This document shows, piece by piece, positions 1-38,091 of a DNA stretch of 48,211 nt. Below the pieces are notes generated by a model, which made no database searches, had not been told where the DNA came from, and saw only the letters and a list, made by a program, of their open reading frames with translations. Position 1 is the stretch's first letter. Every line of letters starts with the position of its first letter. Source of the stretch: Spirochaetaceae bacterium (GTDB taxonomy: Bacteria > Spirochaetota > Spirochaetia > SZUA-6 > Bin103); NCBI GenBank assembly GCA_028821475.1, contig JAPPGB010000081.1, positions 1-48,211 of the forward strand, given 5' to 3'. The translations under genes were made by a program, and so were the position numbers.

Positions 1-93
1 GCCGGGCGGGATTCGCACCCGCTGAGCGACAGCGCCTTTCCACGGCGCACGCAATGGTCCATTGTATCTTGGGGCGTGACCCCAAAGCCCGGC
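1..93 (-). ncRNA. candidate structured RNA (tRNA-like fold, possibly a pseudo-tRNA-Ser)
   Basis: On the minus strand this 93-nt stretch is closed by a perfect 7-bp stem, GCCGGGC (93-87) with GCCCGGC (7-1). Inside are several consecutive hairpins: TGGGG/CCCCA; CAATGG/CCATTG; an anticodon-like arm GCGCC-GTGGAAA-GGCGC that would present GGA (serine) after U33; GCTG/CAGC; and a T-arm-like CGGG-TGCGAAT-CCCG. The length and the GGA loop recall tRNA-Ser. However, the D-arm lacks the conserved GG, the T-loop has G where T55 should be, and the 3' end lies at the window edge. It could be a decayed tRNA, an integration-site remnant or an unrelated structured RNA. Confidence 0.3.
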
Positions 94-368
94 ACGATCA
101 CCATCCCCACCACCGGTACCGCCACCCTTACGGTAACAACCTCGTCCGGGCATAGTGGTCAAAGTGGCGACATAAAGCTTGAGATCAAAAGCGTCTCCAG
201 GGGCCAGATCGGCAACGCGTCGGTCTCAGTGGCGGCAGCGAGTTGAACCAATCGATCGTTGCTGCCCGCGCCACACTTCATCTCGGTGTTCGCACAAGCA
301 GCAGCCATAACTTGGTTCGGGGCCTGACAAGCCGATCCTCCTCGATGGGCGAGAGGCCGCAACTACGG

Positions 369-893
369 ATGGTGTGGCCGGTGCCGCGGCTCGGCTCCGT
401 GCCGGTGCCGGCCCCACCCGCGGGCTACACCATTCGCACCTGCCTCCCAGCGGACGCGCCGCGCTTCTACGAGCTCATGGCGCTGGCCGGTTGGCCGGGG
501 TGGGACGCCGAGCGGCTGTCCTATTCCCTGAACCGGATGCTTCCCGACGGCTGGTACCTGGCGGTACACACGGCCAGCGGGGCGATCGTGGCGTCGGCGA
601 TGGCGCTGCACAACTACAAGGGCACCTATCCGTTCTGGGGCGAGCTCGGCTGGCTGGCCGCCCATCCGGACCACTCCGGCCGCGGACTTGGCTTGGTGGT
701 CTCGTCGTGCGTGGTGCGCCGGTTCGTGGCCGCCGGCTACCGCCTGATCCACCTGCACACCGAGGAGTTTCGGCTGGCGGCGATCAAGACCTACCTGAAG
801 CTGGGATTCGAGCCCTGGATGGGCAGCCCGGACAGCGAAGCGCAGTGGGCGCGGGTTCTGGACCGGCTGGGCTGGACGGCCCGTTACCCGTAG
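369..893 (+). CDS. GNAT-family N-acetyltransferase
   Basis: About 174 residues. The centre and C-terminal half carry the GNAT fold signature: a beta-strand GELGWLAAHPD followed by the acetyl-CoA pyrophosphate-binding loop HSGRGLGL, then a helix ending in VAAGY, and later AIKTYLKLGFEPW, which is typical of GNAT motif B. It is expected to transfer an acyl group from acetyl-CoA to an amine; the substrate cannot be read from the sequence. The frame is open back to 243, but the stretch before 369 (or the ATG at 345) looks non-coding, and GAGAGG lies about 12 nt before the ATG at 369. The gene converges on the methyltransferase gene, overlapping it by 10 bp. Confidence 0.75.
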   Translation: MVWPVPRLGSVPVPAPPAGYTIRTCLPADAPRFYELMALAGWPGWDAERLSYSLNRMLPDGWYLAVHTASGAIVASAMALHNYKGTYPFWGELGWLAAHPDHSGRGLGLVVSSCVVRRFVAAGYRLIHLHTEEFRLAAIKTYLKLGFEPWMGSPDSEAQWARVLDRLGWTARYP

Positions 894-1402
894 ACGACGG
901 CGGCGGGCTGGCCGAGCACCAGGACGTTGCGCGCCCGCAGCCGGGTCGCGGCGACCACTTCTCCGGCCTGCTCGCGCGACATCAGCAGCGCGACGCGGCT
1001 GTCGGCGAACGCGGGACTGTCGATCAGCTCGACGAGCGGTCGTGTCGGCGTCCTGGCGAAGCGGTGCCCGAACGGGAGGTTTGAGACCAGCCGCGCCCCC
1101 TCCGGCAGCCGGTCAAGGGCGAAGTGCTCGAAGCGGATATTGAAGAGCAGCAGGCACCGGCGGTCCGCCAGCCGCTGTCGGGCGACTTGGAACGCCTCCG
1201 GCGCCACCTCCAGGCCGTAGCACGATGCGGCGCCGAAGCGCCGGGCCGCGACGTTCAGGATGGTGCCGGTGCCCATGAACGGGTCGAACACGGTGGTTCC
1301 CGGAGCGGCACCCGCCATGGTGAGCAGCGACGCGGCGAGGTGTCCGCGCAGCGAGCCGGCGCGCAGACCGGCAAGGTTCGCGCTGTCTCCGCTACCACGC
1401 AT
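884..1402 (-). CDS. putative RNA N2-guanine methyltransferase domain (UPF0020/Trm11-RlmL type), short form
   Basis: A 172-residue class I SAM-dependent methyltransferase. Residues around 37-50 read VFDPFMGTGTILNVAA, the SAM-binding motif I of the UPF0020 RNA methylases. Residues around 105-112 read VSNLPFGHR, the catalytic N-x-P-F-type motif of this group. The preceding GSLRGHLAASLL helix is also typical. Relatives such as RlmL and Trm14 carry an N-terminal THUMP RNA-binding domain, which is absent here, so this is either a truncated gene or a stand-alone catalytic domain. The start is supported by GGGAGG 5 nt upstream. An 83-bp dispersed repeat (1418-1500) abuts the 5' end, and a short ORF within it overlaps this start by 11 nt. 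Confidence 0.7.
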   Translation of the reverse strand: MRGSGDSANLAGLRAGSLRGHLAASLLTMAGAAPGTTVFDPFMGTGTILNVAARRFGAASCYGLEVAPEAFQVARQRLADRRCLLLFNIRFEHFALDRLPEGARLVSNLPFGHRFARTPTRPLVELIDSPAFADSRVALLMSREQAGEVVAATRLRARNVLVLGQPAAVVYG

Positions 1403-1466
1403 TGCATCCTCCCTGCACTGGTCCGAAAGAGCCGGCCGGCGGCCGATGCTTGGGCGTCGGTTTCAT
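1392..1466 (-). CDS. possible 24-codon leader ORF carried by repeat copy A
   Basis: Begins ATGAAACCG inside the dispersed repeat and ends TAG 11 nt inside the methyltransferase gene, in a different frame. GGAAAG precedes the start by 3 nt. Equivalent ATGAAA starts are present in the other two copies (3790 and 22249). Whether it is translated is unknown; the arrangement would allow translational coupling to the methyltransferase. Confidence 0.25.
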   Translation of the reverse strand: MKPTPKHRPPAGSFGPVQGGCNAW

Positions 1467-1500
1467 CGTCTTTCCTGTCACGGAGTGACCGTACAGACTC
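1418..1500 (-). repeat. dispersed leader repeat, copy A (83 bp)
   Basis: Aligns end to end with 3741-3824 (about 80% identical by eye) and with the reverse complement of 22215-22298. Shared landmarks, read on the plus strand here, are CTGGTCCG at the left, a GC palindrome GCCGGCCGGC, a GATGC..GGGC.TC imperfect palindrome, TTTCATCG (the ATGAAA start on the minus strand), the palindrome GTCACGGAGTGAC, and ACAGACTC at the right end. It sits between the phytanoyl-CoA dioxygenase-like gene and the methyltransferase and reads toward the methyltransferase start. Confidence 0.8.
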
Positions 1501-1549
1501 GGCGCCGGTCGCGTTCTGGGCGGCACCCCGCCGCGCCGCGCCCTGCCCG

Positions 1550-2362
1550 TCACACCGCGAGCGGCTCGGGGCGGGTCGGGCGCCCGCGGTAGCGGCTGTT
1601 CGGCGGTTCCAGGATCGCCATCTTGCGGTCGTCCATGTCGTCGTAGCGGCGGAACTCCTCGGGGTCGAGATAGGCCCCCGACCAGGAGGTGCCGTGCGGC
1701 GAGAACTTGTAGAACAGCGTGCTGCGCCGGGCATCCGCGGTCCACGGCAGGGTGCCGTGGGTCAGCGCCTCGGTGAACACGATGGCGTCGCCGGGGCGCG
1801 CCGGTATGCGCTTCACGGTAGGGTGGATGCCCCGGCTCAGGTCGCGCCACTGCTCCGGCAGCGGCAGGTTGGCCTTGTGGGTGCCGGGAATGCAGCAGAA
1901 TCCGCCGTCGTTGGGGTGGGTGTCGAACAGCTCGAACGCCACCGCTACGAGGCCGTTGTAGAACCGGCCGTCGTGGTAGCGAAAGAACTGGCTGCCGCCG
2001 GTGGCCTTCCAGCCGCCGTGCAGCATGCCGCCCTTGAACCCCTTGCCGACGTGGGTGTGCACGTTGACGTGGTCGATGCGGAAGGTGGGACGCGCGGAGT
2101 CGCCGTCGACGCTGCGCTCGTGGTTGCCGATCAGCTCCTCCAGCAGCGGGCTGAGCGCCGGCAGGTCGAGCAGGTCGCGCCACGCGCGCGACCAGTGCAG
2201 GGGGCCGCGGCCCGGGTCGACGGGATCGAACTGCTCGGTGGGCACCTGCAGCGTCGACCGCAGCTCCTCGATCTGCGCCTCGCTGACGATATCGCGCAGC
2301 ACCAGGTAGCCGAAGGCGTCGAACAGGTAGCGCTGTTCCTCGTTCATCGCGTGTGAACTCAC
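1550..2362 (-). CDS. phytanoyl-CoA dioxygenase (PhyH) family protein
   Basis: A 270-residue protein that begins with the typical PhyH opening (FDAFGYLVLRDIV, residues about 16-28). It contains a cupin-core segment with GGMLHGGW and, later, GGFCCIPGTHKANLP, which supplies the second metal-ligand His of the family. These are Fe(II)/2-oxoglutarate-dependent oxygenases that hydroxylate small molecules. The Asp of the usual HxD iron motif is not obvious after LHGG, as in a bacterial subfamily with the same HGG sequence, so the catalytic details are uncertain. ATG codons at 2362 and 2347 are both possible starts. It lies on the same strand as the sulfatase upstream, separated by 33 bp. Confidence 0.82.
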   Translation of the reverse strand: MSSHAMNEEQRYLFDAFGYLVLRDIVSEAQIEELRSTLQVPTEQFDPVDPGRGPLHWSRAWRDLLDLPALSPLLEELIGNHERSVDGDSARPTFRIDHVNVHTHVGKGFKGGMLHGGWKATGGSQFFRYHDGRFYNGLVAVAFELFDTHPNDGGFCCIPGTHKANLPLPEQWRDLSRGIHPTVKRIPARPGDAIVFTEALTHGTLPWTADARRSTLFYKFSPHGTSWSGAYLDPEEFRRYDDMDDRKMAILEPPNSRYRGRPTRPEPLAV

Positions 2363-2395
2363 GCCGCCCAGTCTACGCGCACCATCCGCGGCCGC

Positions 2396-3790
2396 TCAAC
2401 CGGCATCGGTCGCCACGGCCGCCACTTCCGGCTTCCGATAGGGGATGGTCGCTTCGTAATCCAACTCGCCGGCAGCGGCGTCGAACTCCGCCTTCAGGCG
2501 CTGCACGAGGTCGGGGTGCGCGGCGGACAGTTCACGGCGCTCGCCCACCTCCTGCCGCAGGTTGTACAGCAGCGGCGGATCGTGTTCGGTGACCGGTGCG
2601 TCCGCGCCGGTGATCGGGTCGCGCAGCACGTCGTTGGTGCGCACGTGGATCTTGTAGTCGCCGGAGCGGTAGGAGAACGGCTCCCGGTAGTGGCCGCTGG
2701 AAAAGAACAGGTAACTGCTGCGCGGGCTGGCGGCGCCGGCGAACAGCGTGTCCGACAGGTCGAGCGAGTCGAGCGGGTAGCCGGACGGCGGCTCGGCGCC
2801 CGTGATCGCCGCGAACGTTGCATACAGGTCGACGTTGACCATGAACGCGTCGCTGACCCCCGGCGCTATGCGCCCCGGCCAGGAGAAGATCGCCGGCACG
2901 CGCGGCCCTCCCTCCCAGCCGGTGCCCTTCTCGCCGCGCAGCGGCCCCGCCGAGCCGCCGAACTCCCGGAACATGCACCACGGCCCGTTGTCGCTGGTGA
3001 ACAGGATCAGCGTGTCGTCGCGCAGCCCCTGCCCCTCCAGGCAGCGCACGACCTCGCCCATCGACCAGTCCAGCTCTTCCACCACGTCGCCGTACAGCCC
3101 TCCGCGGCTCTTGCCCGCGAACGGCGGCGCCGTGAACAGCGGCACGTGCGGCATGTTGTGGGCCAGGTACAGGAAGAACGGCTTGCCGCCGGAGTGGCTC
3201 TCCGTGATGAAGCGCACCGCCTCCTCGGTATAGCGGCGCGTGAACAGCGATTGGCGCGCCGGGTGCTCGATCTGTTCGCGGTTGCGCAACAGCGCCACCG
3301 GCCAGTCGCTCTCCGCGCGCGCGGTGCGGAACGTCTCGTAGTTCTGGCGCTGGCCGTGCACGGTGATTGGATCGTTGCTGCCCTGCGTGCCGTAGAAGTA
3401 GTCGAACCCCTGGTCGAGCGGATGCAGCCCCGGCGCCATGCCGAGGTGCCACTTGCCGATCAGCGCGGATGCGTAGCCGCGCCGGCCGAGCATCTCCGGG
3501 AGCATCGTGCGCGCACGCAGCAATTCGGGATTGTTCATGCCGCCGCGGCACGGGTGCATACCGGTCATCAGGCCCTTGCGGCTCGGCATGCACCACGCCG
3601 CCGACGCGTAGAAGTCGGTGCAGCGCAGCCCGCTCCCGGCCAGTGCGTCCAGGTGCGGCGTGGCGATCACCTCGTTGCCGTAGCAGCCCAGGTCGCCGTA
3701 ACCGAGGTCGTCGCACAGCACGACGATGATGTTCGGAGCACTGGTCCGGAAAGGCCGGCCGGCGGGCGATGCCTGGGCATCGGCTTTCAT
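2396..3790 (-). CDS. type I sulfatase (arylsulfatase A-like)
   Basis: About 464 residues. NIIVVLCDDLGYGD (residues about 20-33) provides the two metal-binding aspartates. CMPSRKGLMTG (from about residue 67) is the C-x-P-S-R signature whose Cys is matured to formylglycine. GKWHLG and FTSDNGP are further sulfatase landmarks. It should hydrolyse sulfate esters. No signal peptide is evident, so it may act in the cytoplasm on imported substrate. The N-terminus is supplied by dispersed repeat copy B: the ATG at 3790 opens the repeat's ATGAAA frame, which runs directly into the sulfatase domain. ATGs at 3826 and 3862 are alternative starts. The protein following at 3834 (glycosylase) is on the same strand just upstream. 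Confidence 0.88.
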   Translation of the reverse strand: MKADAQASPAGRPFRTSAPNIIVVLCDDLGYGDLGCYGNEVIATPHLDALAGSGLRCTDFYASAAWCMPSRKGLMTGMHPCRGGMNNPELLRARTMLPEMLGRRGYASALIGKWHLGMAPGLHPLDQGFDYFYGTQGSNDPITVHGQRQNYETFRTARAESDWPVALLRNREQIEHPARQSLFTRRYTEEAVRFITESHSGGKPFFLYLAHNMPHVPLFTAPPFAGKSRGGLYGDVVEELDWSMGEVVRCLEGQGLRDDTLILFTSDNGPWCMFREFGGSAGPLRGEKGTGWEGGPRVPAIFSWPGRIAPGVSDAFMVNVDLYATFAAITGAEPPSGYPLDSLDLSDTLFAGAASPRSSYLFFSSGHYREPFSYRSGDYKIHVRTNDVLRDPITGADAPVTEHDPPLLYNLRQEVGERRELSAAHPDLVQRLKAEFDAAAGELDYEATIPYRKPEVAAVATDAG

Positions 3791-3824
3791 CGCATTCGAT
3801 TTCACGGAGTGATCGCACAGACTC
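3741..3824 (-). repeat. dispersed leader repeat, copy B (84 bp), fused in frame to the sulfatase
   Basis: About 80% identical to copy A by eye, with the same boundaries (CTGGTCCG to ACAGACTC on the plus strand). It contains a clean palindrome GATGCCTGGGCATC and a weaker version of the GTCACGGAGTGAC palindrome. Its ATGAAA frame (from 3790) encodes a roughly 18-residue basic, Pro/Ala-rich peptide that continues without a stop into the sulfatase. It separates the sulfatase from the DNA glycosylase gene. Confidence 0.8.
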
Positions 3825-3833
3825 ATGGAGAGT

Positions 3834-4382
3834 TCATGGCACCGGACCGGGCGGCGTGGCAACCCCGGCTGCGCTCAGTGCCGCGCACCACTCGGCAGTG
3901 GCCGCCGCGCGGGCCGCCGGCGTATTCCAGTGCAGCGGACGCGGGCTGGTGGACGGCAGGGCGACCGGCTCCACGCCGAGTGCCGCGAAGTGGCGGCGCC
4001 ACTCCCGCCCGCGGCGACCGTTGAGCAGAATCGCAAACGGACCACGCCGTTCCAACAGCAGGCCAATCGGGTTCGGCCGCGCGTCGCGGATGGCGTCATC
4101 CCCCGACCCGGGCCGGCGCACGGCGCCGTAGAGGTCCCAGACGGCAAGGCCACGCTCTCGCACGGCGGCGGTCCGCTCTCCGTAGGGCACCGCCGCATCC
4201 GCAACCACGCCGCAGGCGGCGAGCACGCGCCAGAACCAGTTGTGCGGGTACCCGTAGTACTGCATCGAAGCAAGGGACGCCACGCTCGGAAACGACCCGA
4301 GCACCAGAGCCCGGATCGGCCCGCCGGGAAGGATCGGCGGCAGCCCGCGCAGCAGCGGCGATGAGACCGGAGCGTCGCTCAT
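3834..4382 (-). CDS. DNA-deoxyinosine (hypoxanthine) glycosylase, uracil-DNA glycosylase superfamily
   Basis: A 182-residue single-domain glycosylase. The motif-1 region LVLGSFPSVASL (residues about 27-38) is followed by QYYGYPHNWFWRVL, the signature of the hypoxanthine-DNA glycosylase branch. The C-terminal motif is LPSTSPR. The family excises deaminated adenine (hypoxanthine) from DNA to start base-excision repair. Length and motif spacing are normal. It is transcribed in the same direction as the sulfatase, with dispersed repeat copy B between them, so co-transcription is possible but a functional link is unlikely. Confidence 0.85.
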   Translation of the reverse strand: MSDAPVSSPLLRGLPPILPGGPIRALVLGSFPSVASLASMQYYGYPHNWFWRVLAACGVVADAAVPYGERTAAVRERGLAVWDLYGAVRRPGSGDDAIRDARPNPIGLLLERRGPFAILLNGRRGREWRRHFAALGVEPVALPSTSPRPLHWNTPAARAAATAEWCAALSAAGVATPPGPVP

Positions 4383-4464
4383 TCGGCTACTCGGCGATGC
4401 CGGCCCGGGACCACCCCCGTGCGTCGATGTTCGTCGTCCGAATCAGGGCTTGACCGCCGCGCCG

Positions 4465-6225
4465 CTACTCCACCGCGTCGCAGTATGCCAGCTCCCAGCC
4501 ATGGAATACGACCGCCAGGCCCACGAACCGAACCCGCGGAAACTGCCGCTCCAGACGCTCGTCCGCCAGGTAGCGCCGCAACTGCGCCGTCGCTGTGTCC
4601 ACCGCCGCTGCCACGGCCGCCCCGTCCGCGGGCTCACTGCGCGCCAGGTACTTCAGCTCGATCAGGTAGCCGGCCCGCAGGTGCGGAAAGCGTGCCAGCA
4701 GCGGCTCCAGGCAGATGTCCGCGTGGCCCTTGCCAAGTTCCGCCTCGGAGCGGAATACGTAGTAGTCGGTCACGCTCAGGTACGCCGCCAGAAAACCCTG
4801 TACCACCTTCTCCCCGGCGATGTAGTCGCGAATCCCCGTCTGCCGTGCGATCGCCTCGCCCAGGAACTCCAACGCCGGCCGCCACTCGCCCTTGTTCGCC
4901 ATTCGCATCATCAACTGCTCGAATCGGTACAGGTCGACACTGAACACTTCCACGTCCCGGTAGCCGTCGCGCAGGTAGCCGTACATGAGCTGCTTCACGG
5001 TCTGATTGGGAATCGCCAGCCGCGGCATTCCGTCCACCACTCCACGGATGCTCAGCAGCCCGAAGTAGTGCAGCAGCGACAGGAAGTTCTGCCGGTCGGT
5101 GAGCTGCTGCAGGGGGAAGCTCGGCTGGATGTGCGGCAGGTCCTTCCGCCCCTCGCCGATGACCTCGCGCAGCAGGTCGAAGTTGCCGTTGAGCTGCCGG
5201 CCCACCACCAGCAGGTGGCGCAGCTTGCCGTAGTCGATGCGCACGTTGGTGTCGATCAGGTACCTCGGCACGCCCCGGTTCGGCATCGAGTGCTTCAGGT
5301 AGTAGAGCACCATGTCGGTGTTGTACACGTCGGTGTCGGCGTCCTCGGCGGCGAACCGGTAGCCGTTGTACCACTCGCCCATCAGGGCCATGGCTTCATC
5401 CACGTCCTGGTCGAGTACGCCGTGCTCCCGGTAGGTCTCCACCAAGCGCCGCACCTCCGCCTCGGTGAAGCCGACCATCTCGTTGAAGTCGGGTTCCAGG
5501 CTGATGTTGGTGCCGATGTTGAACCCGCTGGTGACGTCGTCCATGGTCACCGGCGACACCCCGGTGATGAACAGGCGGTCGATGCCGCCGCCGCTACGCG
5601 CCGTGCCGCCCTTGAGGGTGGCGAAGAAGTTGCGGTAGAAGCCGCCGCCGTGCGTGAAGTCCTCGTACGCCTGGGCGCCGTGGCGCGCCAGCACGGTGTT
5701 GGCGAAGTTGTCGTACTCGTCGATCAGCACGTACAGCGGGATGTCGTGGTCGCCCCCGTATCGGAACAGTTCGGACAGCTTGCTGGCGATCGAGGGCGGC
5801 GCCAGGATGTCCCGCACCGCCGCTTCCGGAAACAGGTCGGGATGGCGCCGCAGGGTCCCGCGGAGCTCGATCATGCAGTAGGTCTCGAACTCCCGCTCCA
5901 GCGTTTCCAGCTTGTCGTTGACCATCGAAAAGTTGAAGCGGAGGGTGACGTAGCGGCTCTGTTCCCCGGTCGGCTCCCGCCCGATGTCGGTACCGGCGAA
6001 GGTAGCGTCGAAGTCGCCGGCCCAGAAGCGGTCGTAGTAGTTCTCCAGCAGCGAGACCCACAGCGTCTTGCCGAATCGCCGCGGACGGATCAGGAAGGCG
6101 TAGCGCTCCTGTTCCAACCGCCGCAGGAAGCGCGTCTTGTCGACGTACAGCCAGCCGTTCAGGCGGATGCGCCGAAAGTCGCCCTCGCCGTAGGGAATGC
6201 GCGGGTAAGCGGGAGCTTCGTGCAC
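4465..6225 (-). CDS. AAA-ATPase-like / PD-(D/E)XK nuclease-like protein (DUF1703 type)
   Basis: A 586-residue protein of the two-part AAA_ATPase-like + PDDEXK_9 family that is expanded in Bacteroidetes and Spirochaetes. The N-terminus YVDKTRFL is the family hallmark. RPRRFGKTLWVSLL (about 47-60) is the P-loop, and PLYVLIDEYDNF is the Walker B segment. Near the C-terminus, GKGHADI, followed after about 20 residues by YLIELKYL, gives the D..ExK nuclease core. The cellular role is unknown; such proteins are often multi-copy and horizontally mobile. It starts at GTG (6225) after GAGG. It is flanked upstream by a divergent DUF420 gene. Confidence 0.85.
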   Translation of the reverse strand: MHEAPAYPRIPYGEGDFRRIRLNGWLYVDKTRFLRRLEQERYAFLIRPRRFGKTLWVSLLENYYDRFWAGDFDATFAGTDIGREPTGEQSRYVTLRFNFSMVNDKLETLEREFETYCMIELRGTLRRHPDLFPEAAVRDILAPPSIASKLSELFRYGGDHDIPLYVLIDEYDNFANTVLARHGAQAYEDFTHGGGFYRNFFATLKGGTARSGGGIDRLFITGVSPVTMDDVTSGFNIGTNISLEPDFNEMVGFTEAEVRRLVETYREHGVLDQDVDEAMALMGEWYNGYRFAAEDADTDVYNTDMVLYYLKHSMPNRGVPRYLIDTNVRIDYGKLRHLLVVGRQLNGNFDLLREVIGEGRKDLPHIQPSFPLQQLTDRQNFLSLLHYFGLLSIRGVVDGMPRLAIPNQTVKQLMYGYLRDGYRDVEVFSVDLYRFEQLMMRMANKGEWRPALEFLGEAIARQTGIRDYIAGEKVVQGFLAAYLSVTDYYVFRSEAELGKGHADICLEPLLARFPHLRAGYLIELKYLARSEPADGAAVAAAVDTATAQLRRYLADERLERQFPRVRFVGLAVVFHGWELAYCDAVE

Positions 6226-6895: not shown

Positions 6896-7336
6896 TTGCC
6901 ATCGGAAGCCCCCGGCACTTACATCGGCGCCTATGCGCGGTGCCGTGACCCGGAGGGCCGCCTGCTGCTGGTGCGCATGGCGCGCGGGCTGGACGAAGGC
7001 CGCTGGACCCTCCCCGGCGGCGGGATCGAGTGGGGCGAGCACCCGGACGCGGCGGTCGTCCGCGAGCTGGAAGAGGAAACGGGCATATCCGACATCGGCA
7101 GGTTCAAGGTCGCCGCGTGCTACTCCCGCACCTACAAGCGCACAGCGAAGCGCCCCTACCCGCCGGTTCATCACATCGCCATCATCTACGAAATCACACC
7201 AGCGTCGCTCGATCTCAGCTTCGAGCAGGACGGCTCGACCGATCGGTGCGGGTGGTTCACCGAGGCCGAGGCCCGCGCGCTGCCGCTGGTCCCGCTGGCG
7301 CAGTTCGCGGTCAACCTGACCTGGCCGAAGCCGTAG
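6896..7336 (+). CDS. Nudix hydrolase
   Basis: A 146-residue protein. Residues 42-64 match the Nudix box G-x5-E-x7-REUxEExGU exactly, including RELEEETGI. It should hydrolyse a nucleoside diphosphate linked to another moiety; the flanking sequence does not identify the substrate. The start is a TTG at 6896, chosen because AAGAGG lies 8 nt upstream and no ATG is available before the fold begins. It follows DUF420 by 12 bp on the same strand. Confidence 0.88.
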   Translation: MPSEAPGTYIGAYARCRDPEGRLLLVRMARGLDEGRWTLPGGGIEWGEHPDAAVVRELEEETGISDIGRFKVAACYSRTYKRTAKRPYPPVHHIAIIYEITPASLDLSFEQDGSTDRCGWFTEAEARALPLVPLAQFAVNLTWPKP

Positions 7337-7348
7337 CGGCAGCGGCTG

Positions 7349-8335
7349 TTACTCGCCGCGGGAGGCGGGCGGCAGGCGGTAGACGCGGCGGGCGGTGCCG
7401 CTGAACAGGGCGTCCTTGTCGGCTTCGGAGAAGTCGGCGGTGATCAGCTTGAACGCGTTGTACAGCACGCGGTAGGAGACCGACACCTTCTCCACCGGGA
7501 AGTTGCTCTCCAGCATGCAGCGTCCGATGCCGAAGCAGTCGATGGCGTGCAGGTAGTACTCGCGCTGGGCGGTGGCGAATTCCTCGGCCGTGACCGGCTG
7601 CTCGCGCCCGTCCCAGCCGAAGCCGTTGTCGGCCATCGCCATGCCGCCGAGCTTGGCGAACACGTTGGGAAGGGCGGCGGCGGCGGCCACGTCGCGCTTG
7701 GACTGCGCGAGGATCTCTTCCCGCTGCGCCCGGTAGCGCCCGATGCCGACCGGAGTGCCGAAGTGGTCGAGGATGCAGACGGTGTCGGGGGCGCTCTTGG
7801 CCACCGCGATGAAGTCGGCCATCTGGTAGTGATAGTGCCAGCTCTCCCAGGTGAGGCCGCGCCGGCCGAGCAGGCGCACGCCGGCCTGAAACTGCTCCTC
7901 GTGCGCCAGGCCGGCGCGCGCCGGGCCGGGGTTGGTCTCGGTGCCGGGACGGTGGTCGCCGCGTGCGAGCGCGTGCCGGATGCCGCGGAAGCGGCCGCCG
8001 CCCGCGGCCTCGTGGGCGTCCAGCACCTCCGGCACCAGGTCGCCCGCCGTCAGGTCGGCGAAGGACACGATGCCGGCGATCTCCGGGCCGCCGGCGGCAA
8101 CGGATGCGCGCGCCTCCCCGGCCACCCACTCGGTCTCGCCGACCGGGCGCAGGTGTTCGGGGCCGCCGCTCCGGTAGCTGGCGCCGCACTCCACGAACAC
8201 CGTTTGCACGATGTCGTGCCCGGAGCGCAGGTCCTCGTACAACTCCGCCAGCGCGTAGGCGGCGCGCCGGCCGTTCGGCCACAGGTGGTGGTGCGGATCG
8301 ACGATCTCCCGGCCCGGATCCAGTATCTCGCTCAT
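7349..8335 (-). CDS. amidohydrolase family protein (COG3618-like, putative sugar lactonase)
   Basis: A 328-residue TIM-barrel hydrolase. IVDPHHHLW at about residues 11-19 gives the H-x-H motif of Amidohydrolase_2. ILDHFG, FAKLGGM and LESNFPVEK are the later barrel-strand motifs of the COG3618 lactonase/dicarboxylate-lactone group. The ATG overlaps the stop codon of the upstream oxidoreductase as ATGA, so translation is coupled. That pairing suggests the oxidoreductase makes a lactone and this enzyme opens it, as in L-fucose or related sugar oxidation. The pathway is inference and the substrate is unknown. Confidence 0.83.
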   Translation of the reverse strand: MSEILDPGREIVDPHHHLWPNGRRAAYALAELYEDLRSGHDIVQTVFVECGASYRSGGPEHLRPVGETEWVAGEARASVAAGGPEIAGIVSFADLTAGDLVPEVLDAHEAAGGGRFRGIRHALARGDHRPGTETNPGPARAGLAHEEQFQAGVRLLGRRGLTWESWHYHYQMADFIAVAKSAPDTVCILDHFGTPVGIGRYRAQREEILAQSKRDVAAAAALPNVFAKLGGMAMADNGFGWDGREQPVTAEEFATAQREYYLHAIDCFGIGRCMLESNFPVEKVSVSYRVLYNAFKLITADFSEADKDALFSGTARRVYRLPPASRGE

Positions 8336-9853: not shown

Positions 9854-10987
9854 ATGACAGAGAAAAATGACACCTCACTCGACGCTCGTCGCGACTATGT
9901 CAACGACACCGTTAAACCCGAAGACATTGATTTTCAGCGTATTGCCGCGGAGGAAACAGACTACGAGAGTGCACCTCCCGTGTACCACATTAACACCTAT
10001 CCGGCAGACTTTACTCTTGAGGTACTGCACAGCAAGTGGACTTCCGGAGAAATCGAGATACCACCTTTCCAACGGCAGTTCGTCTGGAAGCAAGTCCAAT
10101 CCAGCAAGCTCATAGAGTCGTTTCTCATAGGCCTTCCGGTTCCTGCAATTTTTCTTTACACACAGCGCGCATCCCAGCGGTTCCTGGTGATAGATGGACA
10201 ACAACGCCTGCAAAGTATATTCTATTTCTTCGATGGATTTTTCGGGACAGAACAGCGCGGCAAGCGAACTGTATTCAAACTGAGCGGATTGAGCGAAGAT
10301 AGCAGGTATTTTGGAAAGCGATTTGAAGATCTCGACGAGGCTGACCGTCGCCGTCTTCGGAACAGTGTCTTGCGTTCGTTCATCGTTCAGCAGATCGATC
10401 CCGAGGACGACACCAGTATCTACCATGTTTTCGAGAGACTCAACACCGGCGGTACGTTCCTCGCCAACCAGGAGATCCGTAATTGTGTGTACCGGGGTGC
10501 CTTTAATGATCTACTAAATGAACTAAATATATTACCTCATTGGAGGCGGATCGTAGGCAAACCAAATCCAGACAGCAGACAGAAAGATGTTGAGTTGATT
10601 CTACGTTTCTTCGCGCTCTTGGACCACGATAAATACAAGAAACCGATGAAAGACTTTCTGTCGAAGTTCATGAAGAATAATCAACATCCACCGAACTTGG
10701 TTCTTCAACAGTTTCGCTCTCTATTCACAGAGACGACCGCGGCGGTCGCGGACAGTCTCGGCGACAGGCCCTTTCATATACGGTCTGGACTCAACAGCGC
10801 AGTATATGATTGTGTGATGGTTACCATTGCCAAGAATCTCGAGTCACTTTCGGCTGAGCTTAGACCCCGTTACGAAAATCTCGTAGAGAACCAAGAGTTC
10901 CTCCAATACGTCAATGTTGGAACGACCGACGAAGAAGTCGTTCACAGCCGATTTCAATGGGCAGAGAAAGGGCTGTTCTCGAAGTAG
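9854..10987 (+). CDS. DUF262 domain protein (GmrSD N-terminal-like)
   Basis: A 377-residue protein. IPPFQRQFVW (about 69-78), followed by ESFLIGLPVPAIFLY and IDGQQRLQSI (113-122), is the DUF262 signature; the D-G-Q-Q-R motif is the ParB-like nucleotide-binding or hydrolysing site known from the GmrS part of the GmrSD restriction enzyme. The DUF1524 HNH nuclease domain of full-length GmrSD proteins is absent. Codon use is much AT-richer than the neighbouring genes, indicating recent transfer. The HEPN gene begins 6 nt after the stop, so the pair is an operon. A role in phage or plasmid defence is inferred from the family and the partner. Confidence 0.85.
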   Translation: MTEKNDTSLDARRDYVNDTVKPEDIDFQRIAAEETDYESAPPVYHINTYPADFTLEVLHSKWTSGEIEIPPFQRQFVWKQVQSSKLIESFLIGLPVPAIFLYTQRASQRFLVIDGQQRLQSIFYFFDGFFGTEQRGKRTVFKLSGLSEDSRYFGKRFEDLDEADRRRLRNSVLRSFIVQQIDPEDDTSIYHVFERLNTGGTFLANQEIRNCVYRGAFNDLLNELNILPHWRRIVGKPNPDSRQKDVELILRFFALLDHDKYKKPMKDFLSKFMKNNQHPPNLVLQQFRSLFTETTAAVADSLGDRPFHIRSGLNSAVYDCVMVTIAKNLESLSAELRPRYENLVENQEFLQYVNVGTTDEEVVHSRFQWAEKGLFSK

Positions 10988-10993
10988 CCTCCA

Positions 10994-11470
10994 ATGCGAT
11001 TGACACGTGTTGACCACGCAATAGACGTGTGTCGACGCCACCTTGAGGATAGTCGATCGAGTGGTACAGAGATCGAAGCGTTTTTAACCCGTTATCTCTT
11101 GATCCTGATCTGCTCAGCCTTTGAAGAGAAGATCGAAGACCTAGTGCATTTGCGCGCACGGAAGTCTGATGATGGGGGACTTATCGCATTTGTAGACAGC
11201 ACGGTGGGACAAGTCTTTCGCAGCGTAAAGACCAGCGAGATCGGGGGTCTGCTCAACCGGTTTGGTACGGATTACAAGGATCGGTTTCGTCAAGAACTGA
11301 ACGACAACCAACGTGCGGAGACCTATTTCAATAGTATAGTGAGCAACCGTCACGATACAGCCCATTCGGTGGACTCAAACACGCCGGTTTCGTTTGGCGA
11401 TCTGATCCTGTTCTATGAAGAGGGCCACGTCGTCCTGGATGCTATCAAGGTGGCTCTGCGTCTCGACTGA
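10994..11470 (+). CDS. HEPN-domain putative RNase (partner of DUF262)
   Basis: A 158-residue, mainly helical protein. SNRHDTAHS contains R119-x4-H124, the R-x4-6-H catalytic motif of HEPN ribonucleases, near the C-terminus as in the family. FEEKIEDLVHLRAR at about 43-56 is the N-terminal helix pair. HEPN-like proteins next to DUF262 recur in bacterial genomes as presumptive defence or toxin modules (MAE_28990/MAE_18760-type). It is directly downstream of DUF262 and shares its low GC. It has no obvious ribosome binding site of its own, which fits coupled translation. The RNA target is unknown. Confidence 0.75.
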   Translation: MRLTRVDHAIDVCRRHLEDSRSSGTEIEAFLTRYLLILICSAFEEKIEDLVHLRARKSDDGGLIAFVDSTVGQVFRSVKTSEIGGLLNRFGTDYKDRFRQELNDNQRAETYFNSIVSNRHDTAHSVDSNTPVSFGDLILFYEEGHVVLDAIKVALRLD

Positions 11471-11890
11471 CGTACGTCTGCATGTTGCGGAGCACTTGAG
11501 ACATCTGCGCGTCTGAGCGGAAGGTGGGCAAAGGCGCGTGATCGGAGCAGGATCAAGGCTGCTGCGACGATCAAGCCGAACGCCCATGATCGTATTGCCG
11601 TTGCAGGTCGATCTTCCCGGAGACGACCAAGCAGTCAACGGTAGCGCCTGCGTGACCGCGAGTGTCCACAGCGATCACGGATGCGGAATCCAGCGATCGA
11701 TGCTGCGCGGCATACGCTCCGGCCTCCTGGAGCCGGGGATTCACAGCTCCGTGGTCCTTGCGCTTTTATCAAGCGCCGTGGCACGATCTGCATCCAGTGG
11801 ACGAAGCCAAGGTCATCGACCTCCACGTGAAGACGCCCGATGGGCGAGTCGAGCCGGAGCCGGCGCAGCATGCTGGCGAGGACGGCTGAG
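11471..11890. other. gap between the HEPN gene and the ABC permease operon
   Basis: Composition returns to GC-rich across this stretch. Several short frames are open on both strands, but none resembles a known family; a plus-strand frame ending at 11889 may be a remnant of an interrupted gene. The promoter of the downstream permease operon should lie here, but I cannot point to clear -35/-10 boxes. Confidence 0.4.
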
Positions 11891-12886
11891 ATGGCTCAGT
11901 ATATCAGCCGCCGGTTGCTCAACATGGTCATCACGCTGGCGTTCATCTCGGTCATATCGTTCGCCATCATTCAGTTGCCGCCGGGCGACTACCTCACCAG
12001 CTACATCGCGCAGTTGCGCGCCGCCGGCGAGGAGGTGAACGAGGAGCTGATCGAGAGCCTGCGCATGCAGTACGGGCTCGGCAAGACGCCGGTGCAGCAG
12101 TACTTCAGGTGGGTGTGGAACTTCGTGCAGGGCAACATGGGCCAGTCGTTCATCTACGACCGCCCGGTGAACGACCTGATCTGGGAGCGGCTCGGGCTGA
12201 CCTTCGTGATCGCCACCGCGTCGCTGGTGTTCACCTGGCTGCTGGCGCTGCCGATCGGCATCTACTCGGCGGTGCGGCAATACTCGTTCGGCGACTACCT
12301 GTTCACGTTCCTGAGCTTCATCGGCCTGGCGGTGCCCAACTTCATGCTCGCCCTGGCGCTGATGTTCGCCGGCTTCAAGTGGCTGGGTCTGGACGTGGGC
12401 GGCCTGTTCTCGGTCGAGTACGAGAGCGCACCCTGGTCGATCGCCAAGTTCGTGGACCTGCTGGAGCACCTGTGGGTGCCGACGGTGGTGCTCGGGACGG
12501 CCGGCACCGCGGCGCTGGTGCGCATCATGCGCGCCAACCTGCTCGATGAGTTGCGCAAGCTGTACGTGATCACCGCGCGCGCCAAGGGCGTCGCCGAGGG
12601 TCGGCTCATCATCAAGTACCCGGTGCGCATCGCGCTCAACCCGTTCATCTCGTCGGTGGGCTGGATCCTGCCCACCCTGATCTCCGGCGCCACCATCACC
12701 GCCATCGTGCTCAACCTGCCGACCACCGGACCGATGCTGGTCGACGCTCTGCTGCAGCAGGACATGTTCCTGGCCGGCAGCTTCATCATGATGCTGTCCA
12801 CCCTCACCGTGATCGGCATGCTGATCTCGGACGTGATGCTGGTGCTCGCCGATCCGCGCATCCGCATCGGCATGGCCAATGAGTAA
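11891..12886 (+). CDS. ABC transporter permease, oligopeptide type (DppB/OppB-like)
   Basis: A 331-residue inner-membrane protein starting MAQYISRRLLNMV, the standard N-terminus of this family. Six hydrophobic segments follow. RAKGVAEGRLIIKY (about 231-244) is the cytoplasmic EAA loop that contacts the ATPase, and the C-terminus ends VLADPRIR. The start at 11891 follows a GAGGACGG sequence. The second permease starts 8 nt before the stop. ATPase genes are not adjacent; the nearest are at 35601-38091, and the nearest solute-binding protein is at 18625-20715. Confidence 0.9.
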   Translation: MAQYISRRLLNMVITLAFISVISFAIIQLPPGDYLTSYIAQLRAAGEEVNEELIESLRMQYGLGKTPVQQYFRWVWNFVQGNMGQSFIYDRPVNDLIWERLGLTFVIATASLVFTWLLALPIGIYSAVRQYSFGDYLFTFLSFIGLAVPNFMLALALMFAGFKWLGLDVGGLFSVEYESAPWSIAKFVDLLEHLWVPTVVLGTAGTAALVRIMRANLLDELRKLYVITARAKGVAEGRLIIKYPVRIALNPFISSVGWILPTLISGATITAIVLNLPTTGPMLVDALLQQDMFLAGSFIMMLSTLTVIGMLISDVMLVLADPRIRIGMANE

Positions 12887-22083: not shown

Positions 22084-22214
22084 CGTCGTCACCTTGCACG
22101 TCAAGCGAGCGAAGATCAATCGCCGCCGAGGGCGCCCAGGAAGAATCGACACGGCTGCGGGGCCGTGGGCGCCAACCTTGACGCCAGCGGGTTCCCGTTG
22201 TACCTATCTGGTTT

Positions 22215-22298
22215 GAGTCTGTACGGTCACTCCGTGACATGGAAGCCGATGAAAACCGATGCCCGACCATCGCCCACCAGGCGGCCTTTTCGGACCAG
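22215..22298 (+). repeat. dispersed leader repeat, copy C (84 bp)
   Basis: On the plus strand it reads GAGTCTGTACGG to CGGACCAG and is the reverse-complement orientation of copies A and B. It again lies directly upstream of, and oriented toward, a gene start, here DUF433. It contains the intact palindrome GTCACTCCGTGAC and the ATGAAA start at 22249, preceded by GGAAG. Confidence 0.8.
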
Positions 22299-22308
22299 GC
22301 TCCTGTGA
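22249..22308 (+). CDS. possible 19-codon leader ORF carried by repeat copy C
   Basis: Starts ATGAAAACC, encodes a basic Pro/Arg-rich peptide, and stops at TGA 22306-22308. That TGA overlaps the GTG start of DUF433 as GTGA, an arrangement suited to translational coupling. Translation is not shown by the sequence alone. Confidence 0.3.
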   Translation: MKTDARPSPTRRPFRTRLL

Positions 22309-22637
22309 AACCACGTATCGAGACCACCCCCGGAATCGCCGGCGGGAAGCCACGCATCGCGGGCCATAGAATCACGGTAGAGGACATCGTGATCTGGCAC
22401 CGACATCAAGGGAAGTGCAGCGCCCAGATCGCGGATGAGTTCGACTTGACCCCGTCCGAGGTGCATGCAGCGCTTGCCTACTACCGTGATCACCGAGCCG
22501 TGATGGATCGCGCGATGGAACTCGGTCGGCAGTACGTAGATGCGTGCAGGAGCCGGAGTACTTCCAAAGTAACTGAGAAGCTTCGCCAGCGGAAGCGAAG
22601 TCGCGACGAACCGAAGGACCACGTCGAACACCTGTAA
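22305..22637 (+). CDS. orphan DUF433-domain protein
   Basis: 110 residues from GTG 22305: KPRIETTPGIAGGKPRIAGHR, ITVEDIVIWH and FDLTPSEVHAALAYYRDH reproduce the DUF433 pattern. A basic C-terminal tail rich in Arg/Lys follows. No PIN-like toxin gene is adjacent; the next gene is a sulfatase on the other strand. An upstream in-frame ATG at 22239 would add residues encoded by the repeat, but the GTG fits family length better and overlaps the repeat's leader ORF. Confidence 0.75.
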   Translation: MKPRIETTPGIAGGKPRIAGHRITVEDIVIWHRHQGKCSAQIADEFDLTPSEVHAALAYYRDHRAVMDRAMELGRQYVDACRSRSTSKVTEKLRQRKRSRDEPKDHVEHL

Positions 22638-35600: not shown

Positions 35601-36707
35601 TCAGCCGGTGGCCGGGATCTCGACGCCGCGCAGGGCGAGGTCGGGGGCGAAGTGGCAGGCGACCCACTGCTCGTGGCCGGCGGGGGTGAGTTCGGGGACG
35701 TCGGTGCTGCAGCGCGGCATGCGGTCCGCCTGCGGGGCGTAGGAGCAGCGGGTGTGGAACCGGCAGCCGCTCGGCGGGTTGGCCGGCGACGGCACGCCGC
35801 CCTCCAGGATGATGCGCTTGCGCTGCACGTCGGGGTCGGGCACCTGCACCGCCGACAGCAGCGCCTCCGTGTAGGGGTGCTGGGGGTTGCGGTACAGGTC
35901 CTCGCCGCGCGCCAACTCCACCAGCCGGCCCAGGTACATCACCGCCACCCAGTCGCTGATGTGCTCCACCACCGACAGGTCGTGCGCAATGAACACGTAG
36001 GTCAGCCCCAACTCCGCCTGCAGGTCCTCCAGCAGGTTGAGCACCTGGCCCTGAATCGACACGTCCAGCGCCGACACCGGCTCGTCGGCGATCACCAGCT
36101 TCGGGTTCAGGGCCAGGGCGCGCGCGATGCCGATGCGCTGCCGCTGGCCGGCCGAGAACTGGTGCGGGTAGCGGGCGCGCTGCTCGGGACGCAGCCCCAC
36201 CTGCCCCATCAGGGTGACCACGCGCTCCTCGATCTCCTCTTTCGAGCCGCCAATGTTGTGGATCAGGAACGGCTCGGTCAGGATCTGCTGCACCGTCATG
36301 CGCGGGTTGAGCGACGAGTTGGGGTCCTGGAAGATCATCTGCACTTCGCGGCGCACCCGTTTCAGGCGCTCCCGGTCCAGCGTGGCCAGGTCGACCATCG
36401 ACTGTTCGGCCGCGAGGCCCTCCGCCGCCAGCCGCTCGCTGCGGAACAGCGCCTGCCCCGCGGTCGGCTCCTCCAGCCGCAGGATGGTGCGCCCGACGGT
36501 GGTCTTGCCGCAGCCGCTCTCCCCCACCAAGCCCAGTGTCTCGCCCTCGCGCACCGTGAAGGAGACGTCGTCCACCGCCTTCACCTCGCCCACCTTGCGG
36601 CGCAGGATGCCGCCCTCCACCGGGAAGTACTTCTTGAGGTTCCTGACCTCCAGAAGCGGGGCGGCGACGCCGCGCACTGCTCTGTCCGCGGCCGGAGCGC
36701 CCTTCAT
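35601..36707 (-). CDS. oligopeptide ABC transporter ATPase (DppF/OppF-like)
   Basis: 368 residues. [12 protein letters not shown] (Walker A), [20 protein letters not shown] (signature) and [14 protein letters not shown] (Walker B) are intact. The C-terminal oligo_HPY domain carries the Cys cluster [20 protein letters not shown], probably an iron-sulfur or structural motif. The ATG at 36707 overlaps the stop of the last of four mini-ORFs (ATGA) rather than the stop of DppD. An in-frame upstream ATG at 36779 would read through the repeat array. It energises transport with DppD and a DppB/C pair, probably the one at 28377-30590. Confidence 0.9.
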
Positions 36708-36790
36708 ACGGCGGTCTCGCTCAGCCAGCGTTGTGGCAGGTGGTTCGGCTGCGCCGCTCCGGAACGGTCCTTGGGGCATGGAGCCGTCAT
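36704..36790 (-). CDS. mini-ORF 4 of the coupled array (28 codons, most divergent unit)
   Basis: Starts [11 protein letters not shown] and ends WLSETAV, with the TGA overlapping the DppF ATG. It appears to be the ancestral DppD tail, since its ending differs from the other units and it borders DppF directly. Confidence 0.5.
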
Positions 36791-36873
36791 CCGCCCGCCT
36801 CGCTCAACCAGCAACGCGACAGGTGGTCCGGCTGCGCCGCTCCGGAACGGTCCTTGAGGCATGGAGCCGTCAT
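36787..36873 (-). CDS. mini-ORF 3 of the coupled array (28 codons)
   Basis: Starts [11 protein letters not shown] and ends [11 protein letters not shown], the same tail as the end of DppD. It is joined by ATGA overlaps to mini-ORFs 2 and 4. Confidence 0.45.
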
Positions 36874-36956
36874 CCGCCCGCCTCGCTCAACCAGTAGCGC
36901 GGCAGGTGGTTCGGCTGTGCCGCTCCGGAACGGTCCTTGAGGCATGGAGCCGTCAT
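36870..36956 (-). CDS. mini-ORF 2 of the coupled array (28 codons)
   Basis: Identical in sequence to mini-ORF 1: starts [11 protein letters not shown] and ends [11 protein letters not shown]. It is joined by ATGA overlaps on both sides. Confidence 0.45.
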
Positions 36957-37039
36957 CCGCCCGCCTCGCTCAACCAGTAGCGCGGCAGGTGGTTCGGCTG
37001 TGCCGCTCCGGAACGGTCCTTGAGGCATGGAGCCGTCAT
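36953..37039 (-). CDS. mini-ORF 1 of the coupled array (28 codons)
   Basis: Starts [11 protein letters not shown] and ends [11 protein letters not shown]. Its ATG overlaps the DppD stop codon. The product would be a short peptide ending like DppD itself. Confidence 0.45.
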   Translation of the reverse strand: MTAPCLKDRSGAAQPNHLPRYWLSEAGG

Positions 37040-38091
37040 CCGCCCGCCTCGCTCAACCAGCAGCGCGACAGGTGGTTCGGCGCCGGCTCGAAGATGGGCG
37101 GTTCCTCGGCACACCGTTCCATGCGCTGCGGGCAGCGGTCGGCGAATCGGCAGCCGGGTGGCGTGGCGCGCGGGTCGGGCACCAGCCCCTGGATCGGCTG
37201 CAGGCGCTGGCGCACCTGCGCCCCGAGCACCGGAATCGAACGCAGCAGCCCCCGCGTATAGGGGTGCCGCGGCTCTTTGAACACCGGCCGCATCGGGCCG
37301 TATTCCACCACCCGCCCCAGGTACATCACCGCCACCTCGTCCGCCATGCCCACCACCACGCCGAGGTCGTGGGTGATCATGATGATGGAAATGCCGAACT
37401 CGCCCTGCAGCCGTTGCATCAGCTCCAGGATCTGCGCCTGGATGGTGACGTCGAGCGCGGTGGTCGGCTCGTCCGCGATCAGCAGCGATGGGTTGCACGA
37501 CAGCGCCATCGCGATCATCGCCCGCTGCCGCATGCCGCCGGAGAGCTGGTGCGGATACTCCACCGCACGCCGCTCGGGATCGGCGATGCCCACCTGGCGC
37601 AGCATCTCCACCGCCCGCGTACGCGCCTCGCCCGCCGGCTTCTCCTGGTGGAGCTGGATCGCCTCCATGATCTGGTTGCCGATGGTGTACACCGGGTTCA
37701 GGCTGGTCATCGGCTCCTGGAAGATCATCGCGATCTCGCCGCCGCGGATGCGCCGGTAGGCACGGCTGTGCGGGTCCATCTGCGCCAGGTCCACCTCGCT
37801 GTCGTCCTTGCGGCGGAACCGCAGGCTGCCGCTGATGGCGGTGGTGGCGGGCGGCACCAGCCCCATGATGCTGAGCGCGGTCACGGTCTTGCCGCAGCCG
37901 CTCTCGCCGACCAGCCCCAGGGTGCGGTTGCGCCCCACCGCCAGGTCGACGCCGTCCACCGCGCGCACGGTGCCGCGGTCGGTATGAAACCAGGTCTTCA
38001 GGTCGCGGATCTCCAGCAGTGGAGCCTGCCGGTCGGACGTTGCGGGCACCGTGACGGTCGCGCTGTCGGGAGGCCGGTCGGAAGCAGCCAT
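37036..38091 (-). CDS. oligopeptide ABC transporter ATPase (DppD/OppD-like)
   Basis: 351 residues. [16 protein letters not shown] (Walker A), HQLSGGMRQRAMIAMALSCN (signature) and LLIADEPTTALDVT (Walker B) are intact, and the oligo_HPY region has PPGCRFADRCPQRMERC. It ends [13 protein letters not shown], the tail duplicated in the adjacent mini-ORF array. It lies 13 bp downstream of the propeller gene at 38105-39748 on the same strand, so they may be co-transcribed. It hydrolyses ATP with DppF to drive import. Confidence 0.92.
   Translation of the reverse strand: MAASDRPPDSATVTVPATSDRQAPLLEIRDLKTWFHTDRGTVRAVDGVDLAVGRNRTLGLVGESGCGKTVTALSIMGLVPPATTAISGSLRFRRKDDSEVDLAQMDPHSRAYRRIRGGEIAMIFQEPMTSLNPVYTIGNQIMEAIQLHQEKPAGEARTRAVEMLRQVGIADPERRAVEYPHQLSGGMRQRAMIAMALSCNPSLLIADEPTTALDVTIQAQILELMQRLQGEFGISIIMITHDLGVVVGMADEVAVMYLGRVVEYGPMRPVFKEPRHPYTRGLLRSIPVLGAQVRQRLQPIQGLVPDPRATPPGCRFADRCPQRMERCAEEPPIFEPAPNHLSRCWLSEAGG

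Follow-up and report, generated by a model that had tools for sequence, protein, structure and literature searches.

Locus and genomes compared

The window analysed in this study is a stretch of 48,211 nucleotides, corresponding to C81, one of the 183 contigs in the draft genome (G000; 5.73 Mb, 95.7% complete) of a Spirochaetaceae bacterium. In PMC5649159, MPNH00000000 appears as bin103 among the tabulated bins of Aplysina aerophoba, a sponge, and the window organism is probably a sponge-associated spirochaete. The genomes used for comparison were G001 (same genus, 81% complete), G002 (same genus) and G003 (same family, sister genus). Genes were called with a custom, simple codon-usage caller and not with Prodigal.

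The features considered here are listed in Table 1. They include a short methyltransferase (MTase) gene, preceded by a copy of a dispersed repeat (copy A), a phytanoyl-CoA dioxygenase-like gene (PhyH1) and a sulfatase gene whose 5' end contains another copy (copy B).

Table 1. Features of the repeat copies and adjacent genes in the window.
Feature	Position	Strand	Remarks
Truncated MTase, UPF0020 domain	884-1402	-	172 aa; corresponds to the C-terminal half of its 336-aa orthologue in G002
Start codon and first ~12 codons, probably of PhyH2 origin	1361-1402	-	28/42 identity to the G002 PhyH2 start; ends at junction TGCGC, common to the MTase
ATGAAA open frame within and beyond copy A (MKPTPKHRPPAGSFGPVQGGCNAW)	1392-1466	-	overlaps the MTase ATG by 11 nt
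Shine-Dalgarno-like AGGGAGG	1408-1414	-	between copy A and ATG; counterpart GAAGGAGGAG before the PhyH2 start in G002
Repeat copy A	1418-1500	-	80 nt of the unit at 1418-1497 (consensus 81 nt), with GAG before it at 1498-1500
PhyH1, phytanoyl-CoA dioxygenase-like	1550-2362	-	syntenic upstream neighbour in G002
Sulfatase ORF	2396-3826	-	repeat-encoded N-terminus MSLCDHSVKSNAMKADAQASPAGRPFRTS-APNIIVV; G002 DNA reads ATGAGTACTCCGAAC, MSTPN
Repeat copy B	3741-3825	-	in frame at sulfatase codon 2, adding 27 residues; G002 has the clean empty site
Repeat copy C, after TTGAG	22213-22298	+	open frame ends overlapping the GTG of the DUF433 ORF 22305-22637

Other parts of the window also resemble sequences found elsewhere or are repetitive. 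Its first 50 bases (1-51) match several G002 contigs with 92-94% identity, in some cases near contig starts (C4, C49, C32; also C55, C92), and this match may represent a separate repeat and a point of assembly breakage. The AAA-ATPase-like/PDDEXK_9 gene at 4465-6225 has many paralogues in G002 and G003 (DNA identity of 73-87%), and a tandem array of an 83-bp unit, the repeats of which are 75-89% alike, occupies 36701-37115.

A high-copy repeat family

A preceding sequence-only reading of this DNA had placed a repeat copy directly 5' of the MTase gene, where it indeed lies, and had called it the second copy. The copy is real, but its number was understated. BLAST with copy A yielded 40 scored copies in G000 from 92 candidates (copy A included, the others being 82-92% identical to it), while a profile built from 39 copies gave, at E<=0.01, 110 matches in G000, 28 in G002, a single one in G003 and none in G001. 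This copy number is far beyond chance. In total, 79 copies were inspected; L036, one of a near-identical pair, was left out of these counts.

The distribution of the repeat is narrow. BLAST across 61 genomes gave matches in G000 and G002 only, and a 23-base pattern was found in one record of genome_contigs (84,980 species, a set that may omit close relatives of the window), namely MPNH01000020.1 of Spirochaetaceae bacterium bin103. The sister genus carries a single, diverged copy (L067, G003:C2:1004463), preceded by ATGAG. A phage origin was also considered and was rejected, as the pattern occurred in none of the viral contigs. Among the titles and first lines of abstracts listed on mobile promoters, Rickettsia palindromic elements (RPEs), PATE (ends-only derivatives of IS200/IS605 elements), sponge spirochaetes and in-frame repeats, none described the 81-bp repeat.

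The mobile unit is about 81 bp long (TCTGTACGGTCACTCCGTGAC...CTTTTTCGGACCAG), with GAGTCTGTACGGTCACTCCGTGACATGGAAGACGATGAAAACCGATGCCCAAGCATCGCCCGCCGGCCGGCTTTTTCGGACCAG as the consensus of 40 copies. For the study of its hairpins 66 copies were aligned (61 of the 79 from G000, 4 of the 28 from G002 and the one from G003), those with large indels or ragged ends having been dropped beforehand. Since, among 66 copies compared, the closest pair differs by 4.8% and the median divergence is 25%, the spread of the repeat seems to have been prolonged and not very recent. The unit equals 27 codons and is open in two forward frames (four of six frames overall), which is not striking in GC-rich DNA. The ATGAAA frame at copy A, the 11-nt overlap of which with the MTase ATG had been described correctly, is a by-product of this open frame. 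Very probably, the repeat constitutes a high-copy, non-autonomous mobile DNA family, so far confined to one genus apart from the one match in its sister genus.

Empty sites and target preference

Ten sites (copies A and B, L095, L007, L108, L021, L008, L022, L027 and L124) were compared with G002. The left junction was clean at three of them (B, L095 and L027) and the right junction at one (B), the others being rearranged or non-syntenic. Copy B has a two-sided empty site: G002 reads ATGAG|TACTCCGAAC and the window ATGAG-[81 bp]-TGCTCCGAAC, so that at the junction ATGAG|TACTCC corresponds to ATGAG[81 bp]TGCTCC. The empty sites of L095 and L027 in G002 are ACCATCATGGAGTGAG| (...GAGTGAG|) and TTCTACCGCCAGTAG| (...CAGTAG|), respectively, with divergence or a few additional bases on the right side. 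In all three readable empty sites (ATGAG, GTGAG and GTAG) the AG before the unit is host sequence, and therefore the mobile unit is taken to be about 81 bp long, with the left GAG as its target. By analogy with these empty sites, the GAG before copy A is probably target sequence as well.

Regarding the remaining sites, L007 lies in a 1.16-kb and L124 in a 370-bp stretch present only in G000, L021 and L108 in G000-only intergenic DNA, and L008 and L022 are without usable synteny. One weak profile match, L123, falls within DNA that aligns with G002; it may be common to both genomes or spurious. Beside copy L108, tandem TTCATTGGCGGTTGG-like units, partly masked as N and absent in G002, were observed (L129, ~1200-1500, G000:C88). 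A further comparison (L128, G000:C72, with L134, G002:C58) revealed stretches of 150-210 bp and ~1.2 kb in G000 that are nearly absent in G002, the genes being otherwise collinear; these are likely to represent other mobile families.

The left edge reads TGAG in 37 of the 79 copies. T precedes GAG in 37 of 59 copies, compared with a frequency of 13% in the flanks (p = 1e-18), and the base before TGAG is A or G in 31 of 37. No target duplication was found at copy B, where a 2-bp duplication of AG is indistinguishable from the unit's own CAG end. The unit would thus insert immediately 3' of a host AG, with (A/G)TGAG preferred, and would not duplicate its target. We infer that a single-strand transposase of the HUH/Y1-like type moved it in trans and has since been lost or is missing from the assembly. 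The Y1 transposase TnpA (PF01797) was found in none of the four draft genome assemblies (the control was positive in 5 of 14), and the search for Y2_Tnp gave no match, its control being silent too. Among the half-length profile matches, no left and right end were seen to flank a gene as a pair.

Position of the copies relative to genes

In 12 of the 79 copies the beginning coincides with the stop codon of the gene upstream, and seven open with an ATG or GTG that reads in frame into a coding ORF (one copy belongs to both groups); 51 are intergenic and 10 lie inside a called gene. Copies at TGAG are inside genes in 4 of 37 cases, compared with 312 of the 475 TGAG sites present in 101 kb of G000 (Fisher p = 4e-11). 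Outside genes, starts account for 6 of 33 TGAG copies versus 7 of 163 sites (p = 0.01) and stops for 9 of 33 versus 21 of 163 (p = 0.06). The RTGAG target overlaps both start (ATG/GTG) and stop (TGA) codons, which explains the copies found there. Insertions within genes would mostly be purged, and because of this, together with the overlap of RTGAG with start and stop codons, the survivors would be located at the ends of genes, behind stop codons, within 5' leaders or as in-frame N-terminal extensions. The latter are possible because the unit consists of 27 codons and is open in two forward frames.

The sulfatase gene with copy B illustrates such an extension, with a predicted N-terminal peptide such as ADAQASPAGRPFR. 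Pfam families were recognized in 9 of the 10 repeat-bearing ORFs scanned and in 8 of the 9 that are N-terminally fused (L004 had none). Apart from the sulfatase, the fused ORFs encode a pterin-binding enzyme (L013), an ABC-2 permease (L026), an FGE-sulfatase (L032), an OppC-type permease (L033) and proteins with the POR_N (L110), MR_MLE (L011) and AP_endonuc_2 (L023) domains. Another copy (L018, ~1499-1584, G000:C102:78800) is located inside the long open frame of a VCPO-like haloperoxidase (FG-GAP) and is read in another frame (ESVRSLRDLEDDES...); it is apparently the only case of an internal in-frame insertion. At the level of DNA comparison, in-frame insertion is proved for copy B only.

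The downstream gene is co-directional with the repeat in 54 of 76 cases (p = 3e-4). This orientation would fit a functional regulatory leader, acting by uORF coupling or as a structured RNA and kept by selection upstream of genes, as would the open frame of the repeat that overlaps the next start codon in copies A and C, and the pairs of its two palindromes, which are kept in 87% of the cells of the 66-copy alignment. However, covariation in these palindromes is weak, being equalled by 21-47 of 500 shuffles, the stability of the consensus fold does not exceed that of shuffled sequences (z = -0.45), RNAalifold of 39 copies gave 10 pairs with almost no covariation, and a search of window positions 1-6000 against Rfam (E<=1) gave no match. 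Coding selection on the peptide was likewise rejected: substitutions show no codon-position constraint, and 77 synonymous changes were observed among 40 copies versus 81.9 +- 7.6 expected. A hint in the opposite direction comes from stop-creating changes, of which 3 were observed and 7.8 expected (p = 0.04). Overall, there is no visible constraint on the protein frame or the RNA fold of the repeat. Target choice and purging account for its position, and a regulatory role of this kind is unlikely.

A methyltransferase gene with a probably borrowed start

The short MTase contains UPF0020 as its sole domain (PF01170, E = 1.7e-10). Its G002 orthologue, encoded in an equivalent neighbourhood that lacks the repeat, has ~170 more residues at the N-terminus, and residues 40-329 of this long form align with PDB 3tma (E = 1.8e-6). 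That entry is annotated only as 'methyltransferase'; we take it to be the THUMP protein TrmN. As the alignment spans residues 40-329, the long form was presumably ancestral. By the same alignment, the N-terminal half of the orthologue, which is absent from the window protein, is TrmN-like, and it gave no Pfam match, THUMP included, at E<=10. The earlier description of a protein deprived of its THUMP domain was thus accurate in that the protein is half-length and retains UPF0020 alone, but the word THUMP finds no counterpart in Pfam. The remaining domain is conserved, with a dN/dS of 0.20 relative to G002 (0.20-0.27 for its neighbours), and most of its divergence may predate the truncation.

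Comparison with an orthologous locus lacking the repeat, as proposed in the sequence-only reading, gave the long form in G002, and no repeat-free orthologue of the short form was encountered. The neighbourhood is preserved on G002 contig C73, where window positions 343-1369 correspond to 7028-8069 and positions 1547-3742 to 10168-12351. Between these syntenic blocks G002 has 2.1 kb, comprising the N-terminal half of the MTase and a second PhyH-like gene (PhyH2, named from a reading of its sequence and not from a Pfam result). The missing MTase half, which had also been suggested as a target for searching, is therefore present in this segment, and it had no match in the rest of the G000 genome.

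The MTase ATG is located at 1402-1400, 15 nt from copy A; the repeat is thus as close to the start as had been claimed, but the distance given, 16, was one too many. The ATG and the codons following it (ATGCGTGGTAGCGGAGACAGCGCGAACCTTGCCGGTCTGCGC) resemble the start of PhyH2 in G002 (ATGGCAGACACGGGAGACAGCGTGAGCGTTGCAGAGTTGCGC), with 28 of 42 bases identical in the ATG-anchored comparison. This value ranked first among 19,918 positions of the G002 segment (L064), and 28 was not attained at any of the 210,336 control positions, which came from six other loci. TGCGC, common to both genes, together with the kept frame, marks the junction to the MTase codons CTG CGC GCC GG. Around copy A, the intergenic DNA shows only a weak alignment with G002 (15 of 500 shuffles were as good), and free local alignment of the 46-nt leader with all of L064 scored 26 at the PhyH2 start and 28, the top score, elsewhere (null mean 25.5); the proposed identification of PhyH2 therefore relies on the ATG-anchored comparison together with synteny.

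Because the spacer, the Shine-Dalgarno sequence, the ATG and the first codons match the PhyH2 start, copy A would have entered the leader of PhyH2, upstream of its Shine-Dalgarno sequence. A separate deletion of ~2 kb would have removed the rest of PhyH2 and the N-terminal half of the MTase, fusing the first ~12 PhyH2 codons in frame to the catalytic domain, so that the truncated MTase would use the start of a neighbour. It had been proposed that insertion of the repeat truncated an older gene and supplied a new start. The truncation is real; the start appears to come from PhyH2, with copy A lying ~50 bp upstream of the deletion junction and not at it, and it seems to be the deletion, not the repeat, that cut the gene. 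The repeat may have helped to cause this deletion. Taken together, the joint reading of a mobile 81-bp family preferring RTGAG, copy A in a PhyH leader, a separate ~2-kb deletion and a borrowed MTase start is considered highly probable.

Insertion of the repeat inside the MTase gene itself, cutting it and providing its start codon, would agree with the position of the repeat 15 nt before the ATG and with the long form of the repeat-free orthologue. However, the spacer, Shine-Dalgarno sequence, ATG and first codons belong neither to the repeat nor to the MTase but match the PhyH2 start, and PhyH1 keeps the upstream position that it has in G002 while PhyH2 is absent from the interval, which makes this quite improbable. 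The family is also abundant and could recombine, and a repeat does lie within ~50 bp of the deletion; recombination of a copy in the PhyH2 leader with another within the MTase might have deleted the 2 kb between them and left a single copy at the junction. Such an event predicts MTase sequence directly after the end of the repeat, whereas the PhyH2 start intervenes, and no relic of the repeat is found in the G002 segment L064; recombination is a very improbable origin of the locus. Finally, a misjoin at a repeat common to many contigs, conceivable in a draft of 183 contigs with a repeat at the site, is extremely improbable, as the flanking genes, PhyH1 and an acetyltransferase-like ORF on opposite sides, are those of G002, no two of the 66 copies compared are less than 4.8% apart, and the deletion junction lies outside the repeat.

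If a catalytic domain was indeed re-started from the first codons of its neighbour, as the preferred reading of a separate deletion holds, the locus would be an instance of gene birth by deletion. The repeat family is more interesting than the truncation of the MTase itself. Bacterial repeats that enter coding sequences in frame are known mainly from Rickettsia, and a target overlapping start and stop codons would be a simple rule by which a repeat survives and extends N-termini without destroying genes. Automatic annotation will miscall such N-termini. More tentatively, the family may be a genus-specific, transposase-less module that targets translation starts and stops (RTGAG), spreads 27-residue N-termini and stop-flanking leaders, and rewrites N-termini without breaking genes.

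Comparison with known systems

The window MTase shares the UPF0020 domain with the TrmN/RlmKL-like THUMP methyltransferases, and its long G002 form aligns with 3tma over most of its length; the window protein differs from them in lacking the N-terminal half and in starting with codons apparently derived from another gene.

As regards the repeat, MITEs (ERIC, BOX and REP) are likewise short and dispersed near genes, and some of them form in-frame fusions as the 81-bp repeat does. However, no terminal inverted repeat is visible in its consensus, and window positions 1-6000 gave no Rfam match at E<=1.

Elements of the IS200/IS605 family, according to PMC7290912, have no terminal inverted repeats, produce no target duplication, insert 3' of a fixed tetra- or pentanucleotide and carry hairpins near their ends; a PATE-like element of 271 nt is described in the same source. 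The repeat resembles both in the lack of target duplication (copy B), in its insertion 3' of a fixed short sequence and in showing no visible terminal inverted repeats. In contrast to them, it is accompanied by no TnpA (PF01797) in G000 or its three relatives, no autonomous element with its ends was seen, and its 81-bp unit is far smaller than the PATE-like element. It appears to work like an ends-only IS200/IS605 element, but it is not filed as one, because the required transposase was not found in the four genomes.

RPEs, as described in PMC10969869, are small, high-copy, non-autonomous repeats of ~150 bp with an open frame, whose in-frame insertion into protein genes of unrelated kinds lengthens the products by a peptide. 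The 81-bp family is likewise small, high-copy and non-autonomous, with in-frame insertion in unrelated genes (start fusions in 7 of 79 copies); this likeness is one of description, and the family differs in its length of 81 bp, its preferred left target and its clustering at start and stop codons. Judged by these comparisons, the family is best regarded as a mobile repeat that is new and almost confined to one genus; its nearest counterparts are RPEs and ends-only elements of the IS200/IS605 type.
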